A stretch of DNA of 64,000 nt, from positions 27,796 through 91,795 of the forward strand of contig ATMD01000003.1 in assembly GCA_001856825.1 (NCBI GenBank), given 5' to 3'. Shown here piece after piece: positions 1 through 9,752 of this stretch; the first letter of the stretch is position 1, and each line of letters opens with the position of its first letter. The notes below the pieces were generated by a model, which worked only from the letters and a program-made list of their open reading frames with translations, was not told the DNA's origin and ran no database searches. The position numbers and the translations under genes are program-made. This DNA comes from Thermoplasmatales archaeon I-plasma (GTDB taxonomy: Archaea; Thermoplasmatota; Thermoplasmata; Thermoplasmatales; GCA-001856825).

Positions 1-138
1 ACTTTCGTTACGGGAGGGTCGGGGAGAGATCACAGGGGTTTGAAAAAGAAAGCAGCCATTGAAGCCATTGAATCGAGGTCCGCTGTCACGCCAGCCATGA
101 AGAGAAAGAGAGGAAGGCCAAGAAAGAATGCCGACTGA
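1..138 (+). CDS. C-terminal end of an AT-hook protein (5' end outside window)
   Basis: An open frame runs from the first base to a TGA at 136-138, giving the last 45 residues of a protein that begins before the window. The tail is very basic and ends in KRKRGRPRKNAD. The RGRPRK core is a classical AT-hook, a motif that binds the minor groove of AT-rich DNA. The lysine- and arginine-rich composition of the whole visible part agrees with a nucleic-acid-binding tail. Its stop overlaps the start of the next gene (ATG at 128) by 11 nt, so it is translated as part of the element operon. The main domain of the protein cannot be seen. Confidence 0.6.
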   Translation, partial: TFVTGGSGRDHRGLKKKAAIEAIESRSAVTPAMKRKRGRPRKNAD

Positions 139-379
139 GTCGGATCAGGGATGGAAAGGACCTGCTGTCATGGGTGCGGGCTCAGGAAAGGTTTCAATTG
201 CAGTTGCTGCTGCCATCGAGGCACTGGAATCCGGCGTGGATATCCGAATAGTGGACAGGACCGGAGACGTTTCACACGGGTTGCTGAAAAGATACCTCCT
301 GAAACATGGTGGGGTGGTCGTCTCTCTGAGCAGCGGAAAAATTATTGTGGAATCAATCAAAAGAAGAGAAAAGGACTGA
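128..379 (+). CDS. small hypothetical protein of the element operon
   Basis: An 83-residue protein that starts inside the end of the AT-hook gene. It is rich in Gly, Ala, Val and Ile in the middle (around residues 15-35) and ends in a basic stretch (SIKRREKD). A GAGSGK run near residues 16-21 superficially resembles a P-loop, but the protein is far too short for a NTPase and has no Walker B motif. I do not recognise the family. A rival frame at 151-399 is cysteine- and arginine-rich and looks like a shadow. The 136-nt gap that follows is the largest within the operon and may hold an internal promoter. Confidence 0.5.
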   Translation: MPTESDQGWKGPAVMGAGSGKVSIAVAAAIEALESGVDIRIVDRTGDVSHGLLKRYLLKHGGVVVSLSSGKIIVESIKRREKD

Positions 380-412
380 AGAAAGATGGCATTGGTTAGG
401 GCGCTCTTGGCG

Positions 413-428
413 AAGTATTATATCTTTA
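413..428 (+). promoter_or_regulatory. possible internal promoter (TATA-like)
   Basis: The gap between 379 and 516 is the only sizeable one in the left operon. It contains a TATA-like run (TATTATATC around 416-424) and a second AT-rich stretch near 436-455. The gene at 516 also has a good ribosome binding site (GGTGATC just before the ATG), so a short 5' leader from a promoter here is plausible. No operator palindrome was seen. Confidence 0.3.
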
Positions 429-515
429 TGCCATATAGATTATTATGGTGAATTTATTTCTCGCTCACGCTGCTGAAAACATTCATGAGGTCCGTACGGT
501 CGGTAAAGGTGATCC

Positions 516-1073
516 ATGATGCTCTTCACCCCAGAGAATGCGGAGAAGGTGAAACAGGGGACTAAGACCGAAACAAGGCGTGACTGGAAGTCCCAGCACG
601 TCTACGCCGGCAGGGTGTACCCCGTCCGCCTCTCGAGGAAAGACCCCGTTCCCCCCGATGCCACCTACATTAGCATCGTGACGGTCTATATGGAAAGGCT
701 AGGGCTTATAACTGACAAGGCAGCTGTACGGGAAGGTCTTGCTACTAGGGAAGAGTTTTTTGCCATCTGGAAGGAATTACATGGGACGGTCGACATGGAT
801 AAGGAAATCTATGTCGTGAGGTTTCGCATCGCAACTCCTCTGGAGATATTCAAGCATCAGTTCAGTCAAATACTTTACAGGAAGAAACCCTTGGGTAAGG
901 AAAAGGCCGTGGCCGTGACGCTCCCTGATGGTAGAGTCTGCGTTTCAGACTCCTATGAGATTCTTCGGAGTCAGCAGGAAAGCTCCGGGCCTTGGGTTCG
1001 TTTGATGAATAAAGGGAATGTCGCTGAAACGATCAGTGTCAAAAATCGAATCAGCGTTGCAGAGGTGAACTAG
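516..1073 (+). CDS. ASCH-domain (PUA-like) protein
   Basis: A 185-residue protein whose first about 110 residues fit the ASCH domain: an early KQGTKTETRR stretch (residues about 13-22), a GRVYPVR strand, a hydrophobic YISIVTVYMERLGLIT segment, then EGLATREEFFAIWKELHG and a closing YVVRF strand. ASCH domains are PUA-like beta barrels that bind RNA or modified nucleotides, and some have amidohydrolase or nuclease activity. The C-terminal about 75 residues are an extra domain that I do not recognise. An SD-like GGTGATC lies just before the ATG. It is the first gene after the only sizeable gap in the operon, directly before an orphan gene and an RNA ligase. Substrate is unknown. Confidence 0.8.
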   Translation: MMLFTPENAEKVKQGTKTETRRDWKSQHVYAGRVYPVRLSRKDPVPPDATYISIVTVYMERLGLITDKAAVREGLATREEFFAIWKELHGTVDMDKEIYVVRFRIATPLEIFKHQFSQILYRKKPLGKEKAVAVTLPDGRVCVSDSYEILRSQQESSGPWVRLMNKGNVAETISVKNRISVAEVN

Positions 1074-1074
1074 G

Positions 1075-1488
1075 ATGGAAAAAGCCGAAGGTTGCTTCTA
1101 TGTTGAATATCTCGCTGCCAGAGAGGGTCTTGATCTGGCTGAATACTTTGCGGGAATTGTCAGGACTAAGGGGAATTGGAAGAAATTTGATAAAAGCGGT
1201 CTCACTGTTGTCTATGATAAGGAACATCCATTGCTGACCATCACGATCGATGGCTCAAAGGACACGTTCAAAACTGGCGATGTCCTGGAATGGTTGACCG
1301 AAAGTGACATCTCAAACATGCACAATGTTGCGTCCTTCACAAAATCTCTCCTGAGGATAGTCCCATCGGGTGGAAAGAATCTCTCAATAGAATTCATATG
1401 GACGGATACGGACAAGATGATAAAGGCAATAGACGACGCTTTTTCCAAAATGGTTGGTTTCGGACTTGATGTCTTTGGGTGGGGATGA
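1075..1488 (+). CDS. hypothetical protein between ASCH and RNA ligase genes
   Basis: A 137-residue soluble protein starting 1 nt after the ASCH stop, with an upstream GGTGA ribosome binding site inside the end of that gene. It alternates beta-like segments (SGLTVVYD, PLLTITIDG, NLSIEFIWT) with two helical segments, and ends in a Gly/Phe/Trp-rich tail. No catalytic motif is visible and I do not recognise the family. Tight coupling on both sides suggests that it works with the ASCH protein or the ligase, but this is inference from position only. Confidence 0.6.
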   Translation: MEKAEGCFYVEYLAAREGLDLAEYFAGIVRTKGNWKKFDKSGLTVVYDKEHPLLTITIDGSKDTFKTGDVLEWLTESDISNMHNVASFTKSLLRIVPSGGKNLSIEFIWTDTDKMIKAIDDAFSKMVGFGLDVFGWG

Positions 1489-1492
1489 AGGA

Positions 1493-2122
1493 ATGAGGGT
1501 GCTAAAAATAGAGGACATGCCGAAGCTGGAAAGTCCATTCGTCAGGAAGATGATAAACGGAAAGTTCTTGGTGACGTCGGAGGTAGCTCCCGGATACGAA
1601 TGGGTCTTTGCAGACCCTGCTACGATTGCAACAGAGAAGCTCGACGGTACCGATGTATCCATAGTCATAGAAGACGGCACCGTCACCTCCATTTGGAACA
1701 GGACGTATCGGATTCCCTTCATCAACAAGGAAAGAAGGTTCATCATTGATGCGGTTCTCGAATCCTATGACCGTGGTTACTGCATGCTGCCCGATGGCCA
1801 ATGGTTCGGGGAGGTCATTGGGAAGGACGTGCAGGGAAATCCCTACGGCATTGATTATACAATGTGGTTGCCGTTTAACACCTACGTTAGGGATAAGCTC
1901 AGTTACAATAGTTGGGGGAAGTACCCCAAGACTTACGAATCCATCCGCAGCTGGTTCCAGGATGGGCCGATATCTCTCTTTATGCTACAACACGGGATCA
2001 AGGATAAACTGGCGGAAGGTATAGTTTTCCATAATCCAAGGACGGAACAGATGGCGAAATTGAGAAGGGACATGTTCGATTTTTATGCCGGTAGCAGACA
2101 CAAGGAGGAAACCAAAAAATGA
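1493..2122 (+). CDS. RNA-ligase-family nucleotidyltransferase (minimal)
   Basis: A 209-residue protein with the full set of covalent nucleotidyltransferase motifs: motif I EKLDGT with the predicted AMP-accepting Lys49, motif Ia WNRT, motif IIIa around WFGEVIG, motif IV AEGIVF and motif V KLRRD. This is the order found in RNA ligases of the Rnl2-like group (PF09414 type). It appears to consist of the catalytic domain alone, without a C-terminal OB fold or other specificity domain. The ATG at 1493 follows the previous stop by 4 nt and has a GGTGGGG ribosome site; an upstream in-frame codon at 1454 is less likely. Expected role is joining or repairing nicked RNA. It overlaps the next gene by 4 nt. 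Confidence 0.85.
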   Translation: MRVLKIEDMPKLESPFVRKMINGKFLVTSEVAPGYEWVFADPATIATEKLDGTDVSIVIEDGTVTSIWNRTYRIPFINKERRFIIDAVLESYDRGYCMLPDGQWFGEVIGKDVQGNPYGIDYTMWLPFNTYVRDKLSYNSWGKYPKTYESIRSWFQDGPISLFMLQHGIKDKLAEGIVFHNPRTEQMAKLRRDMFDFYAGSRHKEETKK

Positions 2123-2397
2123 AGCAGGAAAGTACTGCTCAGATAGAACGCACCGAAATATTCTACGTCCCGCGATGCGGTGTCTGCGATAATGATGTCA
2201 GGCATTGCGATTATTGTAAAGGGACCAGAGCTTTTCATGAAAATCCGAACAGTCAGACTTCGGAAGAGATAATTTGTGTGCATACGAAAAGAAATTATAT
2301 TGGCCGTTTAGACAGGACAAGGCATTTCTGTAGTGAGGAGTGCATGGAAGCATACTTCAAGGAATATCCTGAGTTGAAGGGGCGGTTGGGAAAATGA
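2119..2397 (+). CDS. small zinc-finger protein
   Basis: A 92-residue protein with cysteine pairs CGVC and CDYC near the N-terminus and a second cluster HFCSEEC near the C-terminus. The FCSEEC signature followed by an aromatic helix (MEAYFKEYPELKG) resembles treble-clef or TRASH/MYM-like knuckles, so one or two bound zinc ions are likely. It starts with an ATG that overlaps the RNA ligase stop, with a GGAGG site about 13 nt upstream. Its coupling to the ligase suggests an accessory nucleic-acid- or protein-binding role, which is inference. Confidence 0.65.
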   Translation: MKQESTAQIERTEIFYVPRCGVCDNDVRHCDYCKGTRAFHENPNSQTSEEIICVHTKRNYIGRLDRTRHFCSEECMEAYFKEYPELKGRLGK

Positions 2398-2837
2398 GTT
2401 CCTTCATGCTGTTCCCCAGCATGTTTATCGAAGCCAGGAGGACCAGCGGGAAAGTGACTGTTTCCACCCCCGGCGGACCCGTCTACCGGGCCGACTCTTT
2501 TAGGAGGATAACGGACATCTGCACAGGGTACCCAGGGAGCTGGGTGGAGCTGTATAGCGGGAAAAAATTCATCGGCCAGGTGAACCTGCGCTGGGACCTT
2601 ACGGTCTCCCCTGCGGGCAAGAGGCAAAAGGCACCCCGGAGGTCTAGGGAGGAGATAGAGAAGCTCCTCCTGGAGAGGTCTTTTGAGGACGCGTTCTACG
2701 ACCCGCTGGTTATCACCGAAGAGGAAACCTCGTCCTTCGGTCAGGATCTTGCAAAAGCGGGAGAAGACATCACCGGGGTTGATGCAAGTGACAACCTCCG
2801 CTTCTACAGGAACGTCCCATTGAGGGTGGTGAAGTAG
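2394..2837 (+). CDS. hypothetical protein of the element operon
   Basis: A 147-residue protein that overlaps the preceding zinc-finger gene by 4 nt. The N-terminal half is predicted beta-rich (SGKVTVSTPGG, SWVELYSGKKFIGQVNL), followed by a basic linker (AGKRQKAPRRSREE) and a helical, acidic C-terminal half. I do not recognise the family and see no catalytic motif. GC-rich codon use matches the other left-operon genes and differs from the AT-richer core genes to the right. Confidence 0.55.
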   Translation: MSSFMLFPSMFIEARRTSGKVTVSTPGGPVYRADSFRRITDICTGYPGSWVELYSGKKFIGQVNLRWDLTVSPAGKRQKAPRRSREEIEKLLLERSFEDAFYDPLVITEEETSSFGQDLAKAGEDITGVDASDNLRFYRNVPLRVVK

Positions 2838-2838
2838 G

Positions 2839-3390
2839 GTGACCGGCACCAGTGGTTTTCACCACAATGCGTCCGAGAAGCGCACTAGGAGCGTCAAGGA
2901 ATTCGGTTCGCCCTGCCATCACGCCGATAGAGACGTACATGAAAAAGGTCTGCAGGAAACCGTAATGGGAGGTAACCTTGAAAAAATGACATGCGACGAC
3001 TACCATGGCAGAAACAAATTACTATGCATCCTGATGTCGATGGAGTTCTCGGACAAGGAAATCGACGAATGGATGAAGATGTATGATGACGCTCATGCAA
3101 AGACTGTACAGGCTTCTGAAAGATATGCGAAGGCGCATGGTTTGTCTCTACAGGCTTACCAGAGGCAGAGATCCGCAAGGCACTACAAAAAACTGCACCC
3201 GAATTATGTGCCAGGATTATATAATGGCAAAAAACCATGGACTCGTCTGATTCAGGGGAAATCTTATTGTGTTTCCTGTGGACGTCTCGTTCAGTATAAG
3301 CCGATTAATTGCTCTGCTGAACAACATCACGTATATTATGAAAAAATATTAAAAAAATGCAATGAGAGAAATCGGAGGAGAAAAAAATGA
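2839..3390 (+). CDS. hypothetical protein with C-terminal zinc-binding motif; start uncertain
   Basis: The frame opens at a GTG (2839) one base after the previous stop, with GGTGGTG a few bases upstream, and would give 183 residues. Later starts at ATG 2965 or ATG 2986 (GGAGGT at 2968-2973) are also possible; the first 40 residues look poorly protein-like. The clear part is a helical region (residues about 60-120) and a C-terminal CVSC pair with a later Cys and a His-His-rich stretch, then a lysine/arginine tail. The Cys/His arrangement suggests a zinc knuckle, perhaps HNH-like, but I cannot place it in a nuclease family. It overlaps the next gene by 4 nt. Confidence 0.5.
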   Translation: MTGTSGFHHNASEKRTRSVKEFGSPCHHADRDVHEKGLQETVMGGNLEKMTCDDYHGRNKLLCILMSMEFSDKEIDEWMKMYDDAHAKTVQASERYAKAHGLSLQAYQRQRSARHYKKLHPNYVPGLYNGKKPWTRLIQGKSYCVSCGRLVQYKPINCSAEQHHVYYEKILKKCNERNRRRKK

Positions 3391-3884
3391 ATGTCCACCG
3401 TTTCGACGAATTTGTCGCTGACCTTTTCCTTGAATACGTTGGAAAGACGGGTGACCAGGACGGTGCCGACAAGAAAACCAATGATTTCGGTTTTCAAATC
3501 CACACGTACATCAATTCGCCTCTCTGTTACGAGGGGTTTCTGGACGACATGGACGGCGTGAAGCCGTTTGCATTTTACAATCTTTTTACTGTCCTCGAAA
3601 AGATGGTTGATCATCATCCCCCACGAATTCTCAGCGGGATGAAAGTGCTCCTGAATCTGCTGCCCGACACCACATTGGACGAAAACCCGAAAGATATCAT
3701 CAGGGTGGTTAACATGATTTCATGGTTTATAAATCGGTATCAGGACATCCCGGTAGACTGGTATTGCCAGAAATTCAAGGAGATCGCGTCCAAGTGCAAA
3801 GATGATGAAAAGTCCATCTTTTGTGCCATCAGCCCCAGAATAGACGAAACTGCCGTTGGGAAGATGCGGGGTGAGATATATTGA
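3387..3884 (+). CDS. hypothetical helical protein
   Basis: A 165-residue, mostly helical, mildly acidic protein without recognisable motifs. It has a good SD site (GGAGG about 8 nt before the ATG) and overlaps both neighbours by 4 nt, so it is translationally coupled to the zinc-motif protein before it and the methyltransferase after it. I do not recognise the family. Confidence 0.55.
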   Translation: MNVHRFDEFVADLFLEYVGKTGDQDGADKKTNDFGFQIHTYINSPLCYEGFLDDMDGVKPFAFYNLFTVLEKMVDHHPPRILSGMKVLLNLLPDTTLDENPKDIIRVVNMISWFINRYQDIPVDWYCQKFKEIASKCKDDEKSIFCAISPRIDETAVGKMRGEIY

Positions 3885-4774
3885 CCGATAAATCCGGCCA
3901 GCTTGAGCCAGGTACGGGGCAGGAATCACTCCTCCCCCCATCTGCCGCTCCTCCCATGTCTCCCAAGTCCTCTAAACTCCCCAAGCTCGCTCCCTTCTCA
4001 GACATTGACCTTTCCCGCTGGAAGGACTACTCCGATGTCTGGACGGATTCCCTCTGGGTCATCGACAGGAGGGATACCTCCGGTGCCCACATAAACTCCT
4101 ACCATGGCAACTTCATCCCCCAGATCCCGCATCAGCTGATGATGCGCTACACGAAGAAAGGGGACTGGGTCCTTGACCCGTTCCTCGGCAGCGGCACCAC
4201 CCTTATAGAATGCATCAGGATGGGCAGGAACGGTATAGGTGTGGAGCTTAACGAGTCGGTGGCTGATAAGTCTAAATCCATCATCGCCTCGGAACCCAAC
4301 TCCTTCGGCGTCACCACCGTGACGTCAGTGGGCGATTCATCCACGCTTCCATTCCGCGACCTGTTAGACAGCATCAATGTGAAGAGCGTGCAGCTCGCCG
4401 TACTTCATCCTCCATACCATGGCATAATAAAGTTCTCCGACAACCCCGCGGACCTTTCCAATGCAGGCACGGTGGACGACTTCCTTTTGCAGCTGTCCAG
4501 AGTGGTCAGCAATACCATGCAGGTTCTCGATGAGGGAAGGTACATGGCATTGGTGATAGGGGACAAGTACGAGAAAGGGAAGTGGATTCCTCTGGGCTTT
4601 TATGCCATGCAAAAGGTTATGGACGCAGGCATGGAGCTGAAGAGCATAGTTGTCAAGAATTATGGAGAAACGAGGGGTAAGTCGCATCAGCAGTCGCTCT
4701 GGCGTTACAGGGCACTGCAGGGCGGGTATTACCTCTTCAAGCATGAGTATGTTTTCATATTCAGGAAGGCCTAA
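3881..4774 (+). CDS. DNA amino-methyltransferase (N4-cytosine/N6-adenine type)
   Basis: A 297-residue SAM-dependent methyltransferase. Around residues 74-90 is the HGNFIPQIPHQLM segment typical of motif X, then motif I DPFLGSGTT (99-107) for SAM binding, and the catalytic motif IV as HPPY (176-179), a variant of (D/S)PPY. The C-terminal strand-rich part ends with the usual EYVFIFRK. The start is TTG at 3881, overlapping the previous stop, with GGGGTGAG upstream. A proline/serine-rich leader of about 35 residues precedes the domain. No restriction endonuclease was recognised next to it, so it may be solitary and may modify element or host DNA. Base specificity cannot be read from the motifs. 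Confidence 0.85.
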   Translation: MTDKSGQLEPGTGQESLLPPSAAPPMSPKSSKLPKLAPFSDIDLSRWKDYSDVWTDSLWVIDRRDTSGAHINSYHGNFIPQIPHQLMMRYTKKGDWVLDPFLGSGTTLIECIRMGRNGIGVELNESVADKSKSIIASEPNSFGVTTVTSVGDSSTLPFRDLLDSINVKSVQLAVLHPPYHGIIKFSDNPADLSNAGTVDDFLLQLSRVVSNTMQVLDEGRYMALVIGDKYEKGKWIPLGFYAMQKVMDAGMELKSIVVKNYGETRGKSHQQSLWRYRALQGGYYLFKHEYVFIFRKA

Positions 4775-4776
4775 CG

Positions 4777-5145
4777 ATGAGGATACTTATATGCGGCAGC
4801 AGGTACGACATAGACGAAGACAAGGTGAGGCAGATAATAGAAGATATAGTGCATAACAACCCTGATGAAGAATATATGCACGGTGGAGCGGTGGGAGTGG
4901 ATTCCATGGCAGACAGCATCCTGAAATCTCACGGTATAACCCCTGAGGTGGTCAAGCCGGATTATGAGCTTCACGGGAACTACGCACCGTTGGAAAGAGA
5001 TAACCGGATGGTTGACGTTGCAGATGAAATACACGTTCTCTGGAACGGCAGGAGCAGAGGCAGTCAGTATGTGATGAGATACGCAAAAGCTCACGGCAAG
5101 GCCACGCACATGAGAGTATATGACGTTAGCAGGAAGGTGGAGTGA
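4777..5145 (+). CDS. SLOG-family protein (cpYpsA-related, DUF2493-like)
   Basis: A 122-residue Rossmann-like protein. The features of the SLOG superfamily are visible: GSRYD near the N-terminus, HGGAVGVDSMAD (residues about 35-46), a PDYELHG segment with a later ERDNRMV, and WNGRSRGSQYVM. SLOG proteins bind nucleotides or nucleotide-derived ligands, and relatives act as nucleosidases or as sensors in conflict systems. It lies 2 nt after the methyltransferase stop and abuts the glycosylase-like gene (stop TGA then ATG). The three genes probably act together; no effector domain is fused to it. Confidence 0.8.
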   Translation: MRILICGSRYDIDEDKVRQIIEDIVHNNPDEEYMHGGAVGVDSMADSILKSHGITPEVVKPDYELHGNYAPLERDNRMVDVADEIHVLWNGRSRGSQYVMRYAKAHGKATHMRVYDVSRKVE

Positions 5146-5733
5146 ATGACGGGCGCAAAGAGCTTGGCCGGCCCGTTTGACCTGCTTCATAAGGCGTACG
5201 AATATTCCAGCTCCACGCACCCTGATGAACTGGAATGGGCACGTAAATTGTCGGGTGTTGTCCCAACCCCTGACTTATTCCTGGGCGAGTACATCTGGGT
5301 TGTGCTGGCCAGCGGATTCTCGGCGAAGGCCGCCCGTTCCGTTGAACGGAAGCTGTACGGCGGCGATGGCAAACTCCATCCGGACGCTGTAAAAAACAGG
5401 GGCAAGAGGAATGCAGTCGAAATGGCATCGAGGGAATACATACAATGGTTCAATGCGTTCAACAGCAAGTCTTCCGATGCAGAGAAGCTGGATTATTTGG
5501 AGACGCTCCCGTACATTGGTCCCGTCACGAAATATCACCTCGGAAAGAACCTTGGGATGGATGTTGCAAAACCTGACAGGCACCTCCAGAGGCTGGCTGA
5601 CAGGTGGGGGTTCCGGGACGTCCAGCAGATGTGCAGGGTGATATCACTCGGTAGTGGTTATTCTATAGCAGTGGTTGACCAGGTCTTGTGGAGATTCTGT
5701 GCAGACCGGCCTGCTGAGGTTTGGAGTGAGTGA
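5146..5733 (+). CDS. HhH-GPD DNA glycosylase-like protein
   Basis: A 195-residue protein with a helix-hairpin-helix LPYIGPVTKYHL (residues 121-132) followed by KPDRHLQRL (142-150), whose Asp144 takes the place of the catalytic aspartate of HhH-GPD glycosylases. There is no C-terminal four-cysteine cluster as in endonuclease III. The conventional lysine position of bifunctional glycosylases is not obvious, so a monofunctional activity or a binding-only role is possible. The start directly follows the SLOG stop. With a methyltransferase and a SLOG protein upstream, recognition of modified bases is a reasonable guess. Confidence 0.75.
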   Translation: MTGAKSLAGPFDLLHKAYEYSSSTHPDELEWARKLSGVVPTPDLFLGEYIWVVLASGFSAKAARSVERKLYGGDGKLHPDAVKNRGKRNAVEMASREYIQWFNAFNSKSSDAEKLDYLETLPYIGPVTKYHLGKNLGMDVAKPDRHLQRLADRWGFRDVQQMCRVISLGSGYSIAVVDQVLWRFCADRPAEVWSE

Positions 5734-5736
5734 TAC

Positions 5737-6378
5737 ATGGCGGTTTACGCAATCTGGAAGTCCCGTTGCTGGAAGTGTGAAAAAAATATTAAGGTAGCCG
5801 TCCACTACGGCAGGGTTAATGGCATCGCATTCCTCTGGCAGGAATCGGTCCCGGAGACCACGATAGCACGCCTGGACGGTCTGGGGGTGAAAATGGAAAA
5901 ACGTAAGGTGGGGCAGTCCGGTCGTGCCTGCATCCTGAACATCTGTCCTTATTGCAAATCGACCCAGAGCGATTCTCCCCTCGAGAAGGAGTTGAAAGCT
6001 CTTCTGAAGACAGATGAGAGCATGGTCAGGTTCGTGGACATCGACATCGGATCCATATCCCCCGCCCCTTCCCCGCCCATGGCTGCCGGACGGACCGACG
6101 TGAAGCTGATTGACGGCGAGATACGGAAGCTGGTGGACATGGGGGTAGCGGTGGACGTTGAACGCTCGAGGGCCGCTGATGGGGTGGTGGACGTCATGGT
6201 TCTCAGGACGGACCGGCATTCCTTCGACGACCTTGCTGTCCTCATGACGGGTTTGGAGTACCATTACCTCAACATGAGTAAGATGGGATACCTGTTCAGG
6301 CGGTCTTTGAAGAGTGAACGGGAACACATCGTCTCGGAAAGCCTGCCGGACGTTCCGGAACACATTGCAGAAGAATGA
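5737..6378 (+). CDS. hypothetical protein with N-terminal zinc ribbon
   Basis: A 213-residue protein with CWKC near residue 11 and CPYC near residue 70, a spacing that suits a zinc ribbon enclosing a small beta domain. A proline-rich linker (residues about 107-116) leads to a C-terminal region with a VVDVMVLRTDRH strand. I do not recognise the family. Paired CxxC motifs and a TRP-like aromatic N-terminus suggest a nucleic-acid or protein binding role. It is the last gene of the plus-strand operon and converges on the minus-strand gene at 6398. Confidence 0.6.
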   Translation: MAVYAIWKSRCWKCEKNIKVAVHYGRVNGIAFLWQESVPETTIARLDGLGVKMEKRKVGQSGRACILNICPYCKSTQSDSPLEKELKALLKTDESMVRFVDIDIGSISPAPSPPMAAGRTDVKLIDGEIRKLVDMGVAVDVERSRAADGVVDVMVLRTDRHSFDDLAVLMTGLEYHYLNMSKMGYLFRRSLKSEREHIVSESLPDVPEHIAEE

Positions 6379-8266: not shown

Positions 8267-9622
8267 CTAGAATAGTTTGTACTCCATTATGGTTTTCTTC
8301 ATTATTGACTTGCCTCCGGAAATGGAACTGACAAATTCCCATCCTTGTTCTAGGAGCGAAGGGATTTCGTTATCGTTAATTACTTTCTGTTCTACCCTGT
8401 TAGTCGGTTGAGAATTATATTTGTCTTGATTATCTTTAGCAGTTCTTTCACGAATTAGTTTGACCAGTTCATCGGTAGGCATTTCCTCCAAATTCATCTT
8501 TTCAATCTCTTCTTTTTCAAATCCCGCGAGCATCAAGAACTTCCGGTTTGTTCCAATGTTGCGGTCCTCTACTATAGTTAAATGTTCTGTTTCTATATAC
8601 TGGCAACACTTCGAAAAGGCATTTCTCATTTCCTCCCTCATATCGGGTGGGAGAACTTTGTTGGTGCTGTATCTTGCAGATATATCTCCCATATGTCCGG
8701 CCCAATACTCTCTCCAGTTGTGTGGAATGATCTTCTTCATCTCCGCCATTTCCAAGGCTGTTTCAAAATACGACCTAAATACGTAAGGACGAAGTTCAAA
8801 ACCAGACTTCCTCAATGCATACCTCGTATCTCTCGTAATATCGTTTGTTGCGACCACTCCGTTATCCCGTTTAGACCTTCCCCGCGGAGCTATGGTTATC
8901 AAGGGAGATTCTTTATCCAATTTTTCACCAGTCCTGATCCTCAAATTAAGATAGGTCGAAAGGTATTTCAGCCCCTCCGAGGGTATGAATGTAAAGTACT
9001 TGTGCCCTTTCTTCGAGAGTTGGGCAACCGTTGGCTTCACCTGTCGTACAACTATAGCCGCAGGGACTTTTGAAAACTCGACGCCATCAGACTCTATGCT
9101 TATTCCCTCAACGTCCTTAATTCTAAGTGCGTCGGAACCATTGTAATTTCCGAGAGATTCGGGTCTCAGTCCGGAAAAGGCCAGTAAGGATATGATAGCC
9201 TTTGCCCTCGGTGTTGCGTTGCGAAGCACCAGTGCTACCGCAGATTGCGATGGTACTTCTTCGTCGTACAGGGTGGGAGACAGATTCGCCCCCGGTATTT
9301 TCACGGATCTTAAGTTAGGGTTAACATCGTTGAAGAAGCACCATGAGTTCAGCACTTTCTTGAACCTTACGACATATGAACCAGCCTTGGGTCTCTCCCC
9401 TGCCATCTGCCTGTCGACAAAGTCCATAAAACTCCGGCGCAGTCCACCATTCGCTGCATCTTCGATTATTTTTTCAGGGGTTGTTTTGTTGATAAAACAA
9501 TACAGCCCAAGAGTCCTTAAATATACATCACCAGTGACCAACGCACCTTTCTGGACGTTGTGATACCAGCGAGCCAATTCAGGGTCGTTCAGGAAGTTTG
9601 CATACTTCCGCTTTTTGGTCAC
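8267..9622 (-). CDS. tyrosine recombinase / integrase
   Basis: A 451-residue site-specific recombinase. The catalytic residues are visible: Arg153 in FSGLRPESLGN, box II as RPYVFRSYF with Arg283 (Tyr in place of the usual His), His310 in WAGHMGD, and the nucleophile Tyr318 in ARYST. The N-terminal about 125 residues form a SAM-like DNA-binding domain, and about 120 residues follow the tyrosine. The GTG start at 9622 has a TATA box (ATTTATATA, near 9645-9653) about 27 nt upstream, so the mRNA is probably leaderless. The gene starts 58 nt from the 3' end of tRNA-Val, as expected for an element integrated at that tRNA gene. Confidence 0.9.
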   Translation of the reverse strand: MTKKRKYANFLNDPELARWYHNVQKGALVTGDVYLRTLGLYCFINKTTPEKIIEDAANGGLRRSFMDFVDRQMAGERPKAGSYVVRFKKVLNSWCFFNDVNPNLRSVKIPGANLSPTLYDEEVPSQSAVALVLRNATPRAKAIISLLAFSGLRPESLGNYNGSDALRIKDVEGISIESDGVEFSKVPAAIVVRQVKPTVAQLSKKGHKYFTFIPSEGLKYLSTYLNLRIRTGEKLDKESPLITIAPRGRSKRDNGVVATNDITRDTRYALRKSGFELRPYVFRSYFETALEMAEMKKIIPHNWREYWAGHMGDISARYSTNKVLPPDMREEMRNAFSKCCQYIETEHLTIVEDRNIGTNRKFLMLAGFEKEEIEKMNLEEMPTDELVKLIRERTAKDNQDKYNSQPTNRVEQKVINDNEIPSLLEQGWEFVSSISGGKSIMKKTIMEYKLF

Positions 9623-9679: not shown

Positions 9680-9752
9680 TGGGCCCGACCGGATTCGAAC
9701 CGGTGGTCTCCTCCGTGTCAGGGAGACGTCATAGCCGCTAGACCACGAGCCC
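9680..9752 (-). tRNA. tRNA-Val (anticodon GAC)
   Basis: A complete cloverleaf on the minus strand: acceptor GGGCTCG/CGGGCCC, anticodon stem TCTCC/GGAGG with loop CTGACAC (anticodon GAC, valine), T loop TTCGAAT with a paired stem, and discriminator A at 9680. CCA is not encoded. A TATA-like ATTATTTA lies about 25 nt upstream of the 5' end, between this gene and the dioxygenase gene. The 3' end faces the integrase and is the probable attachment site; no second copy of the 3' half was found in the window. Confidence 0.95.

Follow-up and report, generated by a model that had tools for sequence, protein, structure and literature searches.

A methyltransferase-bearing operon as candidate anti-defence cargo of an integrated element in a Thermoplasmatales archaeon

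We report that the genome of Thermoplasmatales archaeon I-plasma carries, next to a tRNA-Val gene, an integrated element of at least 37 kb with a tightly coupled operon of eleven plus-strand genes (516-6378), among them genes for an RNA ligase, a solitary DNA methyltransferase (MTase), a SLOG protein and a protein of the OGG family. Coordinates refer to the window, i.e. the whole stretch of 64,000 nucleotides that was analysed (G000:C3:27796-91795 of the 1.69-Mb genome), unless a contig or locus is named. The element also encodes a VirB4/TraG-like ATPase, a family B DNA polymerase (PolB) and helicases, its MTase is related to a chromosomal MTase encoded beside a DpnI-family endonuclease, and GATC is depleted on both sides of the tRNA-Val gene. 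We favour, at about an even chance of being right, the reading that the operon is cargo of the element and likely helps it to become established in a cell by weakening the defences of the host; this cargo would comprise an anti-restriction MTase and, likely, other genes directed against defence. Specifically, the element MTase would mark the same sites as the host MTase and thereby protect incoming DNA, the RNA ligase may rejoin RNAs, e.g. tRNAs, cut by host nucleases, and, as the weakest step, the SLOG and OGG-like proteins might bind nucleotide or base ligands of host immunity.

Results and discussion

Operon anatomy

The eleven genes are separated by ten junctions of +1, +4, -4, -4, +1, -4, -4, +2, 0 and +3 nt (computed with the ATG at 1493 as start of the ligase gene), which bears out the tight coupling noted in an earlier sequence-only reading of this DNA. 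An 83-aa open reading frame (ORF; 128-379) is separated from the operon by 136 nt. All 11 operon proteins were scanned against Pfam, and ten of the 11, leaving out a 92-aa zinc-finger-like protein, against PADLOC and PHROGs. Among the domain labels given in the sequence-only reading, RNA ligase, N6_N4_Mtase and YspA-type SLOG hold, but the match to ASCH stays below its cut-off.

The methyltransferase, the DpnI-family locus of the host and GATC depletion

The MTase (3881..4774, plus strand, 297 aa, TTG start) matches Pfam N6_N4_Mtase (8.8e-23) and PADLOC MTase_II (5.1e-124). It is 56% identical, over 257 aa and gapless, to a chromosomal MTase whose gene lies 88 nt from an endonuclease gene with full DpnI (7.4e-67) and DpnI_C (3e-31) domains, on contig C2 of the same genome (L206:7150-9151). 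Of the endonuclease and MTase that make up this restriction locus of the host genus, the element was found to carry a relative of the MTase alone. A DpnI-like gene is present in 11 of the 101 genomes searched and in nine of the 11 genomes of the genus (the present genome included); an MTase relative adjoins it in six of 11 loci, and one adjoins a DpnI fragment in a twelfth. No DpnI-type locus is given for Thermoplasmatota in the available part of PMC10609329.

GATC is the DpnI site, and it is the most depleted of the 256 tetranucleotides on both sides of the tRNA-Val gene: relative to expectations from a Markov model, the 54 kb to the right (taken as host) have 162 observed versus 262 expected (z -8.2) and the 37.5 kb to the left (taken as element) 94 versus 166.5 (z -7.6). 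This two-sided depletion suggests that both host and element have long been exposed to a GATC-directed nuclease, and it suggests a protective role for the element MTase. Target avoidance is described in plasmids in the available part of PMC11602122, and the part of PMC11541004 that was available regards orphan MTases in plasmid leading regions as potentially protective. On sequence grounds, the element MTase is likely an anti-restriction enzyme that would shield the element from the DNA-cutting defence of its host, with a target site that is a prediction only. The counter-defence role proposed in the sequence-only reading hence gains support for the MTase; for the rest of the operon it is a role that we infer.

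The available text of PMC11541004 also describes anti-defence islands in the leading regions of conjugative plasmids, and these resemble the present case in that a solitary MTase and small genes without an assigned role accompany conjugation-type genes. In contrast to them, the element is archaeal and chromosomally integrated, and its operon lacks a Pfam anti-restriction family and adds RNA ligase, SLOG and OGG-like genes; the main text of that paper contains the terms "RNA ligase", "glycosylase" and "archaea" 0 times each.

Several points count against an anti-defence role. True DpnI cuts methylated Gm6ATC, and the host DpnI-like enzyme retains the DpnI_C domain; should that enzyme depend on methylation, an adenine methylase acting on GATC would be detrimental to the element, and the element MTase would need another mark or another site. 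The winged helix of DpnI is termed a sensor of GATC adenine methylation (PMC11037411, available part). Moreover, an MTase was not seen in five of the 11 DpnI loci (three without one within approximately 1.5 kb, two at a contig edge), the GATC expectation is a Markov one only, and the depletion could be inherited. None of the operon orphans matched an anti-defence family in Pfam, no relaxase family was named among the scanned ORFs, where no search was aimed at a relaxase or oriT, and the left boundary of the element was not found, as the contig begins within it. Finally, no relative of the CD-NTase of a same-genus genome (G214, see below) was detected in the own genome, so that a target of the OGG-family protein in this host is only putative.

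The OGG-family protein and a possible repair function

The penultimate gene of the operon (5146..5733, plus strand) encodes a 195-aa protein that matches the PADLOC OGG profile (PDLC00910, a family of the type IV cyclic-oligonucleotide-based antiphage signalling system, CBASS) with E 1.3e-37 and 127.5 bits; PADLOC gives no cut-off for this profile. The HhH-GPD label of the sequence-only reading found no match in Pfam but is upheld by the PADLOC profile and by structure comparison, which supports the fold and places archaeal and Thermotoga 8-oxoguanine glycosylases closest; by sequence the similarity to an 8-oxoguanine glycosylase reaches just E 0.011.

With the Ogg2 8-oxoguanine DNA glycosylases (MjOgg, SsOgg and TmOgg) the OGG family has the HhH-GPD fold and the catalytic aspartate in common (D144; D in 120 of 122 alignment rows, gaps in two). 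It differs from them in three features. The position of the Schiff-base lysine is I, V, A or T in 120 of the 122 rows (gaps in two), and V127 of the 195-aa protein aligns, in a weak match, with the K of GMKEA in 9o00, which we take to be the catalytic (Schiff-base) lysine. The first glycine of the HhH hairpin is replaced by F, Y, W, H or M in 119 rows (G in one, gaps in two), and a lysine is present two residues ahead of the aspartate in every gap-free row.

These residues bear on the principal rival to the cargo reading, namely that the operon belongs to a kit of the element for its own replication and repair, with the glycosylase acting on damaged bases, the ligase on nicks and the MTase in marking. 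PolB, a UvrD-like helicase and three further helicases on the same element, the kinship in fold to 8-oxoguanine glycosylases and the retained aspartate are in keeping with such a kit, whereas the family-wide replacement of the Schiff-base lysine and of the hairpin glycine, and the presence of a CD-NTase in 38 of 116 OGG loci, argue against it; we consider it unlikely, though it is the alternative that survives best. These loci derive from 45 viral and 80 genome loci (kept of 105), 125 in all; an ORF passing the OGG profile was recovered in 114 of them (11 were lost to a crude ORF caller), and the addition of L170 and L188 gave 116.

In the OGG tree the 195-aa protein falls in a set other than the CBASS set, in a lineage rich in mobile elements, and no CD-NTase was detected near the OGG genes of that lineage. 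A tblastn search of phage records with OGG gave no match. Eight viral OGG rows (L059, L061, L065, L077, L082, L084, L088 and L089) are on contigs of 62 to 427 kb, and near OGG in all eight there is a gene that we take, from its sequence, to be deoxynucleotide-kinase-like. Seven further viral rows, three of them identical, fall within the CBASS set of the tree (L064, L068, L069, L079, L083, L085 and L086) and are possible captures from host CBASS. On the archaeal plasmid P-10H_0 (LC711081.1; L170:5057-14065) OGG is near three annotated DNA methyltransferases, and near genes annotated as an intein-bearing radical SAM protein and as PAPS-reductase-like.

RNA ligase, SLOG and recurrence of the gene set

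The RNA ligase (1493..2122, plus strand, 209 aa) is a stand-alone enzyme with a nucleotidyltransferase domain only. It matches Pfam RNA_ligase (PF09414) with 27.4 bits, just over the cut-off of 27, and a PHROG RNA ligase with 3e-11. K50, E108, E176-G177, K190 and R192 (numbered from 1490) are invariant in 27 of 27 sequences and presumably represent the nucleotidyltransferase motifs. Homologues numbered 1278, the best 120 of which were listed, and the family is present in 31 viral loci and, counting the present genome, in six of 250 genomes of the class. The 38 ligase loci compared are L007-L044, and the ligase ORF was recovered in 37 of these, not in L044. The SLOG protein (4777..5145, plus strand, 122 aa) is of the YspA type (Pfam YAcAr, PF10686; 9.7e-18, 64.2 bits versus a cut-off of 28.2), and the profile for this type was built from eight sequences. 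Relatives of it are present in 138 phage records; single-sequence viral scans with the ligase and with the SLOG protein were unproductive.

The sequence-only reading had proposed an undescribed system with this gene set, i.e. ligase, SLOG and glycosylase-like proteins acting together. With flanks of at most 10 kb, and outside metagenome contigs, OGG was present in 0 of 38 ligase loci and the window-type ligase family in 0 of 125 OGG loci; likewise, the YspA-type SLOG was seen in 0 of the 38 ligase loci. Neighbourhood co-occurrence, to which that reading had looked as a check, was thus never found for ligase and OGG, but was found for SLOG and OGG: in one viral locus (L074:9938-11072) OGG is followed after 28 nt by a YspA-type SLOG gene, with the order of the pair reversed relative to the window, and in L071 such a gene is 8 kb from OGG, together two of 116 OGG loci. 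In addition, a Cap17-like SLOG, which is a different family, directly adjoins OGG in six loci, mostly of CBASS (L100, L108, L142, L152, L163 and L169), and lies at a distance of two to four genes in three others. One of 138 neighbours of OGG genes in the mobile-element-rich lineage matches another RNA ligase family (PF09511). These adjacencies and the tight coupling of the 11 genes are what a dedicated new system would predict; set against the lack of recurrence, they leave it quite improbable. The adjacency of SLOG and OGG may carry meaning; the pairing of ligase and OGG is non-recurrent.

For the Cap17-like protein of L188 the family PF18178 was identified, and its PADLOC label is TIR effector; in the available part of PMC10952713, PF18178 is a SLOG family that associates with TIR and PNP. 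In halovirus HGTV-1 (L222:251-851) a window-type SLOG gene adjoins an annotated RtcB tRNA-splicing ligase. A gene within 3.5 kb of the ligase in L037, L038, L040 and L042 we take, from its sequence, to encode a calcineurin-like phosphoesterase, which is a possible RNA end-healing partner of the ligase family.

The neighbours of OGG in the mobile-element-rich lineage were scanned for 138 of the 141 chosen, with three of the chromosomal locus L090 left out and L071, which the tree shows as identical to L070, outside the set; the counts, which are for near neighbours only, include ten phage integrases, four DUF3768, three C5-methylases and one TET-associated glycosyltransferase. That the OGG-like protein and the MTase form a hypermodification module making or editing a modified base in the element DNA is highly improbable: the methylases, the glycosyltransferase and the deoxynucleotide-kinase-like gene near some phage OGG relatives would fit, but Pfam gave no match to a family for base synthesis in the operon, and no fixed OGG partner emerged among the first 25 of 54 neighbour families.

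OGG, CBASS and QueC

The genes of type IV CBASS are CD-NTase, Cap9/QueC, Cap10/TGT and OGG. The 195-aa protein is a member of this OGG family but falls in a different set of the tree, and in the operon there is no CD-NTase (SMODS/cyclase; Pfam for all 11 proteins, PADLOC for ten) and no match to a QueC-like (Cap9) or TGT-like (Cap10) protein (Pfam, PADLOC). We therefore rejected type IV CBASS as an identity for the operon. A type IV CBASS operon with a Cap17-like effector, a PfkB/deoxyribosyltransferase and an exonuclease is present in the same-genus genome G214 (L188:1-6374), and Thermoplasmatota retain CBASS according to the available part of PMC12988326.

In five cellular loci from Bacteroidota, Planctomycetota (two), Lentisphaerota and Balneolota (L101:7551-10678, L112:7442-10573, L126:2319-5196, L146:7732-10435 and L160:7635-10579), OGG stands behind a protein of approximately 120 aa with a glycine-rich N-terminus and a PfkB/deoxyribosyltransferase, and no CD-NTase was detected within 6 kb. 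A QueC-family gene was detected in four of the five, L112 being the one without. The PfkB/deoxyribosyltransferase is also present in the CD-NTase loci L139, L169 and L188. As given in the available parts of PMC11996544 and PMC13279940, the QueC enzymes of type IV CBASS modify the CD-NTase by linking a deazaguanine base to its N-terminal glycine, and QueC beside a PfkB/deoxyribosyltransferase is the published QueC cluster 4 (PMC13329287, available part). L101, L126, L146 and L160 resemble this cluster in having a QueC-family gene by a PfkB-PF05014 fusion, which makes them putative members; they differ in having OGG and the glycine-tailed protein in addition, and "glycine-rich", "OGG" and "glycosylase" have 0 occurrences in the main text of that paper. 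The CD-NTase-free cassette may be a second immune system based on deazaguanylation.

It is thus QueC and the glycine tail, and not the nucleotide cyclase, with which OGG seems to travel, and this is our basis for considering OGG a handler of the deazaguanine mark. Read from sequence and gene context, OGG might act not on DNA but by reading or stripping the 7-deazaguanine that QueC attaches to glycine-rich protein tails, and the stand-alone OGG proteins of elements and viruses might work against immunity by disarming both type IV CBASS and the second, CD-NTase-free QueC/glycine-tail cassette; we put this forward as a doubtful proposal. Our literature search found no papers on OGG or a DNA glycosylase with CBASS, and the available parts of the deazaguanylation texts, among which the original type IV CBASS papers are not covered, give no function for OGG in type IV CBASS.

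The integrated element and its host

The host is an archaeon, since its genome encodes TBP, a family detected only in the four archaea among 14 control genomes. Downstream of the operon there is a 166-aa minus-strand ORF, followed by a 451-aa ORF (8267..9622, minus strand) and tRNA-Val(gac) (9680..9752, minus strand; ARAGORN and Rfam), which confirms the neighbouring tRNA-Val of the sequence-only reading. The 451-aa ORF is the probable integrase of the element; because it lacks a Pfam or PHROG match, the earlier label of tyrosine integrase depends on its position beside the tRNA gene and on a weak resemblance (23% over 338 aa, E 1e-5) to an integrase-like ORF. With regard to insertion boundaries, the tRNA-Val gene is the probable integration site, but a second copy of its end was not found in C3:1-91795, and the remaining full-length matches in the whole genome are two other tRNA-Val genes. 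As the contig starts inside the element, its length is at least 37 kb.

To the left of the window the contig encodes the UvrD-like helicase, three further helicases, which from their domains we take to be XPD-, Hel308- and Hef-like, and, on the minus strand, PolB; a ParB-like protein is encoded there too. In the same part of the contig, the VirB4/TraG-like ATPase is recognised in one ORF (P-loop_TraG 1.7e-7, 30.7 bits versus a cut-off of 25.8). A 1679-aa ORF, likewise to the left, has a weak match to the coupling-protein domain T4SS-DNA_transf (0.0018; 17.6 bits, under the cut-off of 20.1), and relatives of its product are present in the same-genus genomes G288 (36%) and G285 (33%) and, once weaker matches are counted in, in 39 of 300 genomes altogether. 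Judged from these genes, the element would resemble an integrated conjugative plasmid more closely than a virus. We rejected a virus identity, as a terminase-like PHROG match spans just 46 residues and VirB4/TraG-type families match better.

The other operon genes are all on the plus strand. The first encodes an ASCH-like protein (516..1073, 185 aa; Pfam ASCH 18.3 bits, below the cut-off of 21.2), and the zinc-finger-like protein (2119..2397, 92 aa) has weak zf-FCS/TRASH matches in Pfam, every one under its cut-off. Orphans of 137 aa (1075..1488), 147 aa (2394..2837) and 165 aa (3387..3884) are without any match in Pfam, PADLOC and PHROGs, and one of 183 aa (2839..3390, GTG start) has nothing above cut-off in the same three. 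The last gene (5737..6378) encodes an orphan of 213 aa with CxxC pairs and four relatives besides itself, for which a family scan and a plasmid search were both unproductive. It was the orphan modelled, structure prediction of the orphans having been suggested earlier, and the model is of low confidence (pLDDT 64).

Conclusions

The MTase provides a concrete archaeal case of an element that bears a relative of the restriction-linked methylase of its host. Deazaguanylation of proteins has been discovered recently in bacterial immunity, and the mobile-element-rich OGG lineage, in which the aspartate is kept and the lyase lysine is lost family-wide, allows a direct test of the role of OGG and of its use by elements against their hosts; this lineage is the part most worth following.

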